Shown piece by piece: positions 6,925 through 38,401 of a stretch of DNA of 64,000 nt (position 1 is the first letter of the stretch; each line of letters starts with the position of its first letter). The stretch is taken from assembly GCA_028871345.1 (NCBI GenBank), contig JAGWNK010000012.1:27704-91703 (forward strand), given 5' to 3'. Below the pieces are notes generated by a model that was not told where the DNA came from, made no database searches, and worked only from the letters and a program-made list of their open reading frames with translations. The DNA comes from Alphaproteobacteria bacterium (GTDB taxonomy: Bacteria; Pseudomonadota; Alphaproteobacteria; Micropepsales; Micropepsaceae). A program made the translations under genes and the position numbers.

Positions 6925-7156
6925 ACGGAGGTGCGCGGGCGGGCGCCACCGGCTTGCCGGGAGCCGAGGATTGTCGGGTTCTCAGGCCTCGGCGGACGGC
7001 GCACGCCCCGCCGGGGGCTGCCGCCAACATGGCCGGCCGGTTGTATCTGCCCGCCGGAATTGCCTTTGGCCTGCCGGATGAATGGCGTTGACCAAGGGTG
7101 CGCCGACGACTTGAATCCGGGCCGAGGCTGGGCCATAACCCGCCTCCCACTTGGAC

Positions 7157-7231
7157 GCGGGCGTAGCTCAGGGGTAGAGCATAACCTTGCCAAGGTTAGG
7201 GTCGGGCGTTCGATTCGCCTCGCCCGCTCCA
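7157..7231 (+). tRNA. tRNA-Gly (anticodon GCC)
   Basis: A full cloverleaf is visible. The acceptor GCGGGCG pairs with CGCCCGC, the D-arm is GCTC..GAGC, the anticodon loop is TTGCCAA (anticodon GCC), and the T-arm is GGGCG-TTCGATT-CGCCT with one G-U pair. CCA is encoded at 7229-7231. The gene stands alone and is followed by a terminator. Confidence 0.98.
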
Positions 7232-34825: not shown

Positions 34826-36055
<1,230 letters not shown>

Positions 36056-36063
36056 GCGAACCT

Positions 36064-36092
36064 GCCCGGGCGCGTTGTTGGCGCGCCCGGGC
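36064..36092 (-). other. Perfect 11-bp hairpin in the Ro60-rtcB intergenic leader
   Basis: GCCCGGGCGCG (36064-36074) and CGCGCCCGGGC (36082-36092) are exact inverted repeats with a 7-base loop. There is no T-run, so it is not a standard terminator. It begins 9 bases before the rtcB ATG, on the minus strand, and could limit translation or mark an RNA processing site between the two genes. Confidence 0.6.
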
Positions 36093-36120
36093 CTCCTCTT
36101 GCGTTTGTTGATGGAACGCT

Positions 36121-37446
36121 TCAGTGCGGCGTCGTTTCCTGCGCCGCGATCCAGGCGATGATGGCCTCCGAAAAACCGTCGACGCGCTGCCACGCTCCGC
36201 TGCCGACGCCATGCTGGTAGGAGGCGACGTTGACCATCGTCGCCTTGCCCTTCGGCGCCGGAACGCGGTCATGCGCCTGCTCGTCGGTGAAGACGATGAG
36301 GCGTGCGCCTTTGCGGTCGACCGCTTCGACCGCGGCCCCCAGCATGGTGCTGCCGTGCGGCTGCGAGGCGATCACGGCATCACGCAGAGCGAAGCCGCGT
36401 CGCGGCGGCACCTTCACGGTCTTGTGGGAGAACGTGAAGATCTCCACCTCGTCGCACACCTCGCGCGCCAGGATGGCCAGGCCGCAGGCGGCTTCCAACC
36501 GGGTCATCTCCGATTGGGCCGACAGCGGTGCATCCATAGACCCTGAAACGTCGATCAGCAGGGTGGTGCGACCCTTAAGCCGCGCGTAGCCCTTGAGCGA
36601 CTTCAGCATCGCGCTCTCGAGCTCCGGCTCGAAGTCCGGCGCATAGCGCGCCGCCGCGATGAACCGGAACGGCAGGATTCGATCGGTCCGCATGGCCGCG
36701 ATGGCGCCGGCGATGGTTGTTCGCTCCACGCCTTCCTTCTGCATCAGGCGCAGGTTGCGCAGCAGTGCAAGGCCGCCCAGCTTTCCGTCGGCGATCAGCC
36801 GCTCGAAGGTCTGTCGTTTGTCCTTGCCGCCCGACAGCGATACTTCCCACGTGTCCGGCGCAGCCAGCGTGCCGTCGACGAGCTGCTTCCACACCTTCTC
36901 TTGGGACGCATCCTTCGGCTTGGCGTGGACCAGGAACAGGACGTCGCGGATGCGCACCGCGCCATCGCGGTCGTACTTGGCCAGCTGGTAGGCGTCGAAC
37001 TTGGTGAGCGCCCGCGCCAGGCCCTTCTTGATCTGGGCCGCGACCGGCTGCTTCTTGCGCTGCTGCATCGGCCCCAGAGCATCCGCCCAGTAGATGGCGA
37101 GCAGCTCCGTCATCTCGTCCGGCCGCTGGATGATCTTCTCCAACGTCTCGGCCACCAGCGCCCGGTGCGTCTCGTGGCGCGCCATCTCGCGCACCACCAG
37201 AAGCGGCGCATGGCGCAGCTTCATCACCTCGCGGGCCTCTACGGCCAGGGCGGCGGCCCGCTCCGGCTGCACCATCGGCACCAGCGTCTTGATGCGATCG
37301 GCGATGGAGACTCCGTCCTCGTAGAACTGGTCTTCCCACAGGAGGCAGTTCATCAGCGTGCGCTTCAGTTCTCTCTCAGGCGCGAAGCGCTTGCCCTTGG
37401 CGCCTTCGTGCGTGAAGACGCGCAGGATCTTGTTGAGTTTGGCCAT
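36121..37446 (-). CDS. rsr: Ro60/Rsr ring protein (TROVE and vWA domains)
   Basis: A 441-residue orthologue of the Ro autoantigen. The TROVE domain (HEAT-like repeats, ~1-280) forms the RNA-holding ring. The C-terminal von Willebrand A domain carries the metal site DVSGSMD (Asp299, Ser301, Ser303). Bacterial Ro proteins bind Y RNAs and help exoribonucleases such as PNPase process structured RNA. It starts at ATG 37446, giving MAKLNKILRVFTHEGAKGK, with GGGGGTG upstream. rtcB follows and Y-RNA-like elements precede it, the usual Ro context. Confidence 0.93.
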   Translation of the reverse strand: MAKLNKILRVFTHEGAKGKRFAPERELKRTLMNCLLWEDQFYEDGVSIADRIKTLVPMVQPERAAALAVEAREVMKLRHAPLLVVREMARHETHRALVAETLEKIIQRPDEMTELLAIYWADALGPMQQRKKQPVAAQIKKGLARALTKFDAYQLAKYDRDGAVRIRDVLFLVHAKPKDASQEKVWKQLVDGTLAAPDTWEVSLSGGKDKRQTFERLIADGKLGGLALLRNLRLMQKEGVERTTIAGAIAAMRTDRILPFRFIAAARYAPDFEPELESAMLKSLKGYARLKGRTTLLIDVSGSMDAPLSAQSEMTRLEAACGLAILAREVCDEVEIFTFSHKTVKVPPRRGFALRDAVIASQPHGSTMLGAAVEAVDRKGARLIVFTDEQAHDRVPAPKGKATMVNVASYQHGVGSGAWQRVDGFSEAIIAWIAAQETTPH

Positions 37447-37461
37447 GGAACACCCCCTTTC

Positions 37462-37594
37462 GGCCAGTCTAGAGTGATTGTTGGCGGAAACGCCAGGGAA
37501 CAGGCGCCGTCTGAGACGGTGCTGTCGCACCCCCGGCGCGCAGGACTTCCCCGCCTTCCGGTACCCGAAGAAACAGACGACTTCACCACTGGCC
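37462..37594 (-). ncRNA. Y-RNA-like element 3, reaching into the rsr leader
   Basis: Minus strand. GGCCA-GTGGT (37594-37585) can pair with ATCAC (37478-37474) and TGGCC (37466-37462), with a 7-base bulge between. The 5' arm carries the conserved TGGTGAAG...CTTCG hairpin. The interior has two further perfect hairpins, GGTGC-GACA-GCACC and CCGTC-TCA-GACGG, but no tRNA-like arms. The 3' arm lies only 16-32 bases before the rsr start codon, so this copy may act as part of the rsr mRNA. The call rests on similarity to elements 1 and 2. Confidence 0.45.
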
Positions 37595-37845
37595 TAAATG
37601 AACGCACGATCCGGGAACGGGTGATGCTGAGACCCGGGGCCTTGCGGCTCCGGCAGCGCTCTACCGAAGTATCATATGTCTTCACCACCGCCGCCGCCCG
37701 CGAGGGCGGAATGAGCGGCCGAGGAACAGCCGGGCCTGTACTGCCTCTTGCGAGGCGATGATGCTCTGCCGCTGAGCTACGGATTTCTCCGGGTGGAGTC
37801 GAACCACCGGCCTTCACCTTAGCGAAGTAACAGCACCCTTCACCA
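37562..37845 (-). repeat. Three copies of a 26-27-base hairpin repeat
   Basis: On the plus strand the copies are at 37820-37845, 37662-37687 and 37562-37588. Each reads TA-(G/C)1-2-CGAAG-N10/11-CTTCACCA, with CTTCACCA identical in all three. On the minus strand each is TGGTGAAG-N10/11-CTTCG, a GAAG/CTTC hairpin. Each copy forms the 5' part of one Y-RNA-like element. Confidence 0.8.
37620..37689 (-). ncRNA. Y-RNA-like element 2 (compact, no tRNA module)
   Basis: Minus strand. GGTGGTG (37689-37683) pairs with CATCACC (37626-37620), seven pairs including one G-U at the same place as in element 1. The conserved hairpin GAAG-N10-CTTC follows the 5' arm directly. The interior is a GC stem, CCGG.GCC-GCAA-GGC.CCGG, capped by a GNRA loop. 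It looks like a minimal Ro-binding stem without the tRNA-mimic module. Function is inferred from position and shared structure. Confidence 0.5.
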
Positions 37846-37860
37846 TCGGCCTTCTGCGCT
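37740..37860 (-). ncRNA. yrlA: YrlA-like Y RNA with permuted tRNA-mimic module (element 1)
   Basis: Minus strand, ends approximate. GGC(C)GATGGTG (37851-37841) pairs with CATCATCGCC (37763-37754), leaving one bulged C, as in Ro-binding stems of Y RNAs. Inside, in 5'-3' order, come the conserved hairpin GAAG...CTTC, a perfect T-arm GGTGG-TTCGACT-CCACC (37808-37792), a short hairpin CGGA-GAAA-TCCG (37791-37780) in place of the acceptor end, and a canonical D-arm TAGCTCAGCGGCAGAGCA (37779-37762). T-arm before D-arm, joined by a GNRA-capped stem, is the permuted tRNA mimicry of the YrlA family. It lies upstream of rsr on the same strand. No clear promoter was found. Confidence 0.75.
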
Positions 37861-38204
37861 CGCGCGCAGCATGAACCCAGCATGCGGCGGAAATACCGCG
37901 TGCCGGAAGGAAGCTTCCAGGGGAACAATTGGGCCGGGGTCCCCCCGTTTGGGCAGATCGTGGACAGCGATGTACCCGCTTCCCGTCACCACCTGGAACA
38001 CGTCGCCGCGAAGCGCGGCAAATCAAGAAACGAATGTCGTCGCGGCGCTCTGGATCATGGCGCGCCGCCAAAGCGAACCGAGGTTCGCTCCGCCATCGGT
38101 GGTCCGCGCTTGCGCGCGCCGTTCCCTCCGGCGGGCCCCGCGCTTCTGGTCGGGATCCGGGTCTCCCGCCCCGGCGAGCCGGGGAACGATTGAGCCGCGG
38201 AGGG
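37861..38204. other. Gene-free, hairpin-rich spacer upstream of the Y-RNA array
   Basis: I find no convincing coding sequence here. There are several perfect inverted repeats: GCCGCG-AAG-CGCGGC (38005-38019), GCGAACC-GA-GGTTCGC (38073-38088) and CCCCGGC-GA-GCCGGGG (38169-38184). The last two share a two-base GA loop. GGTCCGCGCT at 38101-38110 recurs at 38259-38268 inside the neighbouring ncRNA. The stretch may be structured leader RNA or may separate two transcripts. Confidence 0.5.
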
Positions 38205-38401
38205 TGCAAAAACAAAAAACCCTCCGATGGTTCGGAGGGTTCATCCGAAATCGGATGTGGTCCGCGCTACGCGGGACCGCCCCCACGAACCGGGCGCGCG
38301 TCAGCGATGGGATTTGGACCCGTCGCATCGCTGGCAAAGCATTGCAGTTCGCGTTTCATGCTCGGCTCGTGTTGACCGCAGGACCCCATGCCCTGCGAAG
38401 G
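38205..38401 (-). ncRNA. Promoter-to-terminator small RNA of unknown family
   Basis: About 190 bases on the minus strand, between a good promoter and a strong terminator. Predicted stems include CGCAGG/CCTGCG near the 5' end, AGCGATG/CATCGCT enclosing the T-loop-like GGGTCCAAATCCC, GGTCC(C)GCG-TAG-CGCGGACC with a bulged C, CATCCG-ATTT-CGGATG and the terminator. The 5' and 3' ends do not pair, against 6S RNA. A 30-codon frame, MKRELQCFASDATGPNPIAD onward (38359-38267), lies inside but has no clear ribosome site. The T-loop and the Ro neighbourhood hint at another Y-related RNA, but this is weak. Confidence 0.6.
38214..38239 (-). terminator. Rho-independent terminator of the small RNA
   Basis: On the minus strand CCCTCCGA-ACCA-TCGGAGGG forms a perfect 8-bp stem (38239-38220), followed by TTTTTT and then GTTTTTG. 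There is no T-run on the other strand, which fixes the direction. Confidence 0.92.

Follow-up and report, generated by a model that had tools for sequence, protein, structure and literature searches.

Tandem Y-RNA-like units beside rsr and rtcB in an alphaproteobacterial genome, one of them holding a permuted tRNA module

Upstream of a Ro60-family gene (rsr) that adjoins an RNA ligase gene (rtcB) on the minus strand of an alphaproteobacterial draft genome (3.9 Mb), parts of a tRNA stand in the reverse of their usual order, which raises the question of what RNA is encoded there and what its tRNA-like part could be used for. The reading considered probable here is that the region encodes tandem Y-RNA-like units, the second of which (U2) would be a YrlA-like RNA with a tRNA-mimicking module for a tRNA-handling partner, while anticodon-bearing units of relatives (class II units) would most likely act as bait or competitor for anticodon nucleases. 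The whole stretch of DNA analysed, 64 kb long, is called the window, and two adjacent protein genes within it are:

36121..37446, minus strand: rsr, Ro60-family (TROVE) protein of 441 aa (Pfam TROVE, 56.8 bits, cut-off 23)
34826..36193, minus strand: rtcB, RNA ligase (Pfam RtcB, 445.9 bits)

The rsr product scored 20.6 bits against Pfam vWA_Ro60, below the cut-off of 27.7, and its nearest named relatives, among the best 120 of 7999, were from Rhizomicrobium assemblies or unplaced Pseudomonadota. The start codon of rtcB is uncertain and its open reading frame overlaps the end of rsr.

The permuted order could be read directly from U2, in which a T-arm, the hairpin CGGA-GAAA-TCCG, the dinucleotide TA and a D-arm follow one another on the minus strand (37808-37763). 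This order, described by a sequence-only reading of the same DNA, was borne out by a covariance model (R1) built from an alignment of 22 like units found in relatives, window excluded, with structure added. Searched on both strands of the 64 kb window, R1 matched U2 over its full model length, and its strongest match outside the array was the tRNA-Gly region 7083-7225 (15.3 bits, E 0.031). The parts of U2 are:

37717..37851, minus strand: U2, Y-like unit, YrlA-like RNA with permuted tRNA module (R1, 129.4 bits, E 1.8e-31)
37846..37851, minus strand: 5' strand of the terminal stem P1, GGCCGA, pairing with 37717-37722; compensatory changes in relatives
37717..37722, minus strand: 3' strand of P1, TCGGCC, partner of 37846-37851
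37814..37818, minus strand: helix P2, GGTGA, equivalent of tRNA 39-43; covariation in 22 relatives
37757..37761, minus strand: helix P2, TCATC, equivalent of tRNA 27-31; covariation in 22 relatives
37792..37808, minus strand: T-arm, GGTGG-TTCGACT-CCACC; from sequence, with conserved columns
37780..37791, minus strand: acceptor-like hairpin, CGGA-GAAA-TCCG; from sequence
37763..37777, minus strand: D-arm, GCTC-AGCGGCA-GAGC; from sequence, conserved, two pairs compensatory in one relative

The earlier location of the unit held, but its extent shifted from 37740-37860 to 37717-37851, and the unit ends in the GGCCGA/TCGGCC stem that had gone unused. The Ro60 gene does lie downstream, as had been noticed, the ATG of rsr (37446) coming about 270-300 nt further on. 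U2 thus defined is 135 nt long, inside the range of about 90-150 nt given for Y RNAs in excerpts of PMC8394870, provided that the transcript has the predicted ends. Sequence and comparison place in U2 the features of the YrlA type, i.e., a position beside rsr, paired ends, and a permuted T-arm, acceptor-like stem and D-arm closed by a helix. A match to the Rfam YrlA model (RF02553) was obtained at 37749-37820 (29.3 bits, E 3.2e-4), but it did not reach the gathering score of 69, so that U2 is described as YrlA-like rather than as a match to the curated model; at gathering score, RF02553 matched none of the nine relatives' loci scanned. No canonical tRNA in normal order was found at U2, ARAGORN and Rfam tRNA (gathering) giving only 7157-7231 in the window, and the parse found no 7-nt anticodon loop with stem in U2, which is thus not a complete permuted tRNA gene. 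The earlier identification as a Y RNA that holds tRNA parts in permuted order is supported by genomic context, covariation and co-occurrence with Ro, and U2 is accordingly predicted to be a YrlA-like Y RNA.

U2 is the second of four Y-RNA-like units arranged in tandem (37491-37998, minus strand), all matched by R1. The sequence-only reading had missed the other three:

37915..37998, minus strand: U1, short Y-like unit without tRNA module, terminal stem TTCCAGG/CCTGGAA (R1, 39.1 bits, E 2.4e-8, at 37916-37997; stem search)
37606..37693, minus strand: U3, Y-like unit (R2, 25.2 bits, E 1.1e-4; R1, 20.5 bits, E 0.0015, at 37608-37693)
37491..37594, minus strand: U4, Y-like unit without canonical tRNA module (R1, 44.9 bits, E 8.1e-10)

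The simple stem-based unit finder has no null of its own, and the R1 model and the co-occurrence given below stand in for one. Further copies were not found elsewhere in the genome (best match outside the array, E 0.086). The search for a sigma-70 promoter match upstream of the array gave none. A terminator-like hairpin with a T-run was located upstream of the array, on its strand (38217-38242; three such hairpins found vs 2.1 expected), and the promoter of the array may sit between this hairpin and U1. A GC-rich block upstream of U1 (38030-38200), single-copy in the genome, resembled by eye the same place in the relative's locus L011.

Y-like units were distributed with Ro across the order. 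Ro itself was patchy, with a match in 19 of 96 genomes, and R1 units (E 1e-5) were detected in 18 of the 19 Ro-positive genomes vs none of the 77 Ro-negative ones (Fisher p 1.4e-18, uncorrected for relatedness). By contig and locus matching, 11 of the 18 unit-bearing genomes had supplied units to R1 and seven had supplied none. The Ro match of the nineteenth genome (G015), which displayed no units, spanned only 35 residues at a contig end. Another genome (G067, locus L021, G067:C1:924674-924802) showed a Ro match of only 42 residues in a 142-aa open frame, yet three Y-model matches beside it, and may represent an array that has survived the loss of its Ro gene. A relative of RtcB was present within the examined DNA of 41 of 84 loci, upstream in two of them, with about 31-34% identity in the Bradyrhizobium loci having one; none was found in the other 43, some of which are too short to tell. 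Most relatives derived from one alignment-based scan, Bradyrhizobium-rich, of which 80 of 146 confirmed matches were kept.

The units of relatives shared a conserved fold, which differed in part from the one drawn earlier. RNAalifold on the 22 relatives' units gave 33 pairs, 19 of them with both partners changed in one or more sequences, and a consensus made of P1, an upper stem, P2, three inner T-arm pairs, the D-arm and a small hairpin. Absent from this consensus was the acceptor hairpin, because the stretch varies in length among relatives. All five P1 pairs at columns 5-9 displayed changes on both sides in the 22 relatives. P2, which in the window joins five bases standing five before the T-arm with five starting one base after the D-arm, was paired in 98.2% of cells in the 22 relatives, with a covariation of 1.008 vs 0.213 in shuffled alignments (none of 500 shuffles as high); across 61 units, it scored 11.46 vs 10.13 with mismatched partners (maximum of 11.0 in 200 shuffles). 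The enclosing 10-bp stem with a bulged C described previously (GGC.C.GATGGTG / CATCATC.GCC) can be drawn, but was unconserved, with 67.9% of cells paired vs 68.4% when shuffled (478 of 500 shuffles as high). As a conserved structure it was rejected also over 61 units (10.21 observed vs 10.66 with shuffled partners). The partner of the TCATC within it is instead the second GGTGA, which precedes the T-arm by five bases, and the two form P2.

The predicted fold of the naked RNA followed the drawn stem rather than the conserved one. Free folding of the window RNA paired GATGGTG with CATCATC, and for naked U2 this alternative was preferred (-57.6 kcal/mol vs -39.5 kcal/mol with the conserved helices enforced). 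Formation of the two arms, expected earlier on folding the minus strand, was obtained for the T-arm (pair probability of about 0.9) but only partly for the D-arm (0.35). Of the 61 class I units, the group of U2 (window included), 49 kept the T-arm in the free fold and 45 kept the D-arm. These models suggest that a bound protein would have to favor the conserved fold.

Sister units in relatives carried a more complete tRNA. A simple parse sorted 304 unique units from 85 loci, including the window, into 64 class II units, 61 class I units, 73 others with some T-arm and 106 lacking one. In class I units, including U2, the anticodon stem is left open, and the Y stem occupies the place of the anticodon loop. 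Class II units, overlooked by the sequence-only reading, are broken between tRNA positions 26 and 27 and retain a closed anticodon arm. They were carried chiefly by Bradyrhizobium, Rhizomicrobium-like bacteria and Hyphomonadaceae, and run through the anticodon arm, variable loop, T-arm, acceptor 3' strand, linker, acceptor 5' strand, TA or TG, and D-arm. Their anticodon stem had five pairs in 44 of the 64 modules and four in 20, with a loop of 7 nt; the variable loop was 5 nt long in 59, the acceptor had seven pairs in 62 and six in two, and the linker started with N-CCA in 26 of the 57 unique modules. The 7-nt loop and the arms were required by the parse, while U33, A37 and CCA were not. Ten of 74 parsed candidates were dropped for lacking TA/TG before the D-arm or for a linker longer than 12 nt, and at least six of them were also classed as class I.

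Re-ordered into the normal sequence, all 64 class II modules were called tRNA by ARAGORN with the anticodon as parsed (64/64), and none of 64 after shuffling. Since 17 of the 64 were also called in native order, some class II units may be listed as plain tRNA genes in annotated genomes. One unit in native order (L010:3107-3174) scored 29.3 bits against Rfam tRNA (cut-off 29). The anticodon stem was paired in 91.4% of cells of a 26-unit alignment vs 80.5% when shuffled (none of 500 as high), with a covariation of 0.324 vs 0.117; changes on both sides were found in only one of its five pairs, 31-39, which was kept in 64/64 modules. The free fold displayed the anticodon arm in 23 of the 64 units. 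Under a stricter geometry, 39 of 80 genome loci had a module upstream of rsr, as did 10 of 80 loci from a viral collection, which served as a fresh test because the parser had been built on genome loci; on the reverse strand, in each shuffled set and downstream of the viral-collection rsr genes, modules were present in none of 80 each. U33 was present in 48 of the 49 strict-geometry modules. A flank-based finder detected any Y unit in 29 of the 80 viral-collection loci and a class II unit in three. Ro-family genes were common in this collection (L242-L321; 156 confirmed, 80 kept), which may include host DNA, and carriage by phages is not claimed. At one genome locus, the final Y unit and rsr were separated by an ordinary tRNA gene at L084:4878-4948 (56.5 bits with Rfam tRNA; TTG anticodon by eye).

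Run across the whole class, the class II model gave matches in 326 of 385 genomes at E 0.001; they fell mostly in seemingly ordinary, often neighboring, tRNA genes and were not used to estimate spread. The weak matches of such genes, the ability of neighboring genes to supply a 3' half with a 5' half behind it, and the lost module of U3 could all be taken to mean that the locus is a decayed tRNA gene cluster with no functional RNA. Against the compensatory changes across 22 units, the conserved Y stem and the strict co-occurrence with rsr, this explanation, already disfavored, is scarcely credible.

The anticodon of class II units changed fast within a fixed frame. Among the 57 unique modules, U33 was present in 53 and A37 in 51, and the entropies at positions 32-38 were 0.92, 0.42, 1.47, 1.70, 1.84, 0.64 and 1.34 bits; the 64 modules displayed 19 triplets. 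On a Ro protein tree of 61 loci, every locus giving a single module (18 of the 58 inner branches left open, and modules outside Bradyrhizobium maybe not orthologues), the triplet changed 31 times, with a minimum possible of 16 and a mean of 42.8 for shuffled labels, and thus follows kinship in part. Per column, there were 18, 21 and 19 changes at positions 34-36, 18 each at 31 and 39, 15 at 38 and 11 at 32, compared with three at 33, four at 37 and none at T54-56. In 12 disjoint pairs of loci with at least 95% Ro identity, 16 of 36 anticodon sites differed vs 35 of 828 other module sites (p 5.9e-12, a value too small because the sites within a triplet are not independent). The triplet as a whole differed in six of these 12 pairs, and in one of five pairs at 97%.

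A match of the changing anticodons to the tRNA body was rejected: by a simple score with two tRNA sets, the nearest tRNA of the body was Asn in 36, Arg in 9, Met in 8 and others in 11 of the 64 modules, as against 19 triplets, most bodies being compared with the tRNAs of one Bradyrhizobium rather than those of their own genome. This mismatch bears on whether class II units are working tRNA genes, the halves of a permuted precursor being rejoined by RtcB or another ligase with the help of Rsr. Such a use would account for the tRNA geometry, the frequent N-CCA at the linker start and the tRNA calls of all re-ordered modules, but it is very unlikely given anticodons that do not fit their bodies (as far as bodies compared mostly with one Bradyrhizobium can tell), 44 ordinary tRNA genes in the window genome, Asn and Arg included, and a window U2 without anticodon.

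The fixed frame with its fast triplet is the pattern that would be expected of a bait under changing attack. A different explanation has an appreciable but minor probability, namely that these are Y RNAs whose tRNA-like module merely serves stability or PNPase docking, the anticodon of relatives drifting without function in an unconstrained loop or being occasionally copied from real tRNA genes. YrlA modules with D, T and acceptor arms are indeed a known kind (excerpts of PMC8394870), and U2, like the other class I units, does without an anticodon loop. Plain drift, however, would keep neither the loop length nor U33, A37 and the pair 31-39 at the frequencies found, and it agrees poorly with changes that gather at 34-36 and spare 33 and 37.

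The bait reading, preferred here for the class II units, could not operate in that form in the window, since U2 lacks an anticodon loop and the module of U3 is gone. In an alignment of U3 with locus L043, one long gap removed the anticodon arm, T-arm, acceptor and half of the D-arm. The best 15 of 300 relatives' units matching the 3' part of U3 (GGTAGAGC to its end) were all of class II, as were 12 of the best 20 matching the whole of U3, the top two of which belonged to other classes, the very best being unclassed. The long gap and the class II best matches make U3 a likely remnant of a class II unit that once bore an anticodon, and it was most likely the window lineage that lost the module.

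Taken together, these observations suggest the following mechanism. The array would form the transcribed leader of an rsr-rtcB operon, from which the units would then be excised, with Rsr probably binding the conserved GGUGAAG/GUUCC stem region. In U2, the stem would likely bind the Rsr ring; the permuted parts (T-arm, acceptor and D-arm) would mimic a tRNA and so either bring in or obstruct a partner that handles tRNAs. The module may be bound by enzymes that recognize the tRNA elbow, e.g., PNPase or tRNA modification enzymes, as reported in other bacteria. The class II unit of relatives would most likely lure, or compete for, nucleases acting on tRNA anticodons, and RtcB is encoded at the locus in the window as in roughly half of the loci studied. 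A bolder picture, rather improbable as a whole, would make Rsr Y-RNA arrays fast-evolving bait boards that combine an elbow-only mimic with a permuted tRNA of swapped anticodon; nucleases of phages, rivals or toxin systems would bind or cut the Rsr-held decoy, RtcB, where present, would reseal it, and the window lineage would have deleted the bait U3 and kept U2.

Beside an RNA repair ligase, the arrays suggest for bacterial Ro60 and Y RNAs a role in protection against, or sensing of, anticodon nucleases, and class II arrays form a natural set of anticodon-swapped tRNA bodies. The literature searched displayed no link of permuted tRNA to Y RNA, nor of Bradyrhizobium to the TROVE domain, and an earlier mention of anticodon arms or arrays may exist elsewhere. 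A search of solved structures returned two TROVE entries only, 9l5y and 9kop.

In red algae, permuted tRNA genes carry the tRNA 3' part before the 5' part, and the halves of the permuted precursor are rejoined in algae with such genes. Class II units resemble these genes by their 3' part standing first, their full acceptor and their often CCA-like linker, but differ in being enclosed in a Y stem, in their break at 26/27 and in an anticodon unrelated to the body; U2 is not of such a kind.

The closest likeness of U2 is to the YrlA RNA of Salmonella and other bacteria (RF02553), with which it shares the position beside rsr, the terminal stem, the permuted T-arm, acceptor-like hairpin and D-arm, and a helix next to the T-arm that closes these parts, also present in the Rfam consensus. 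Unlike YrlA, U2 has a short 4-bp acceptor and is one of four tandem units, and its relatives hold anticodon-bearing units. The YrlA module has been likened to D, T and acceptor arms, is bound by PNPase and is modified by DusA and TruB (excerpts of PMC8394870). The Salmonella rsr-yrlBA-rtcBA RNA repair operon likewise brings Rsr, Y RNAs and RtcB together, whereas the Y units precede rsr in the window; the tRNA-like domain of Salmonella YrlA was not a substrate of an anticodon nuclease and was suggested to be a competitive inhibitor (excerpts of PMC7790460). In the excerpted parts of that 2020 study, the roles of Ro60 and Y RNA are left unaddressed and possibilities are listed (PMC7790460). The Deinococcus RYPER complex (Y RNA-Rsr-PNPase) offers a further likeness through the proposed role of the Y RNA as a tether on the Rsr ring (excerpts of PMC4726728 and PMC8394870).
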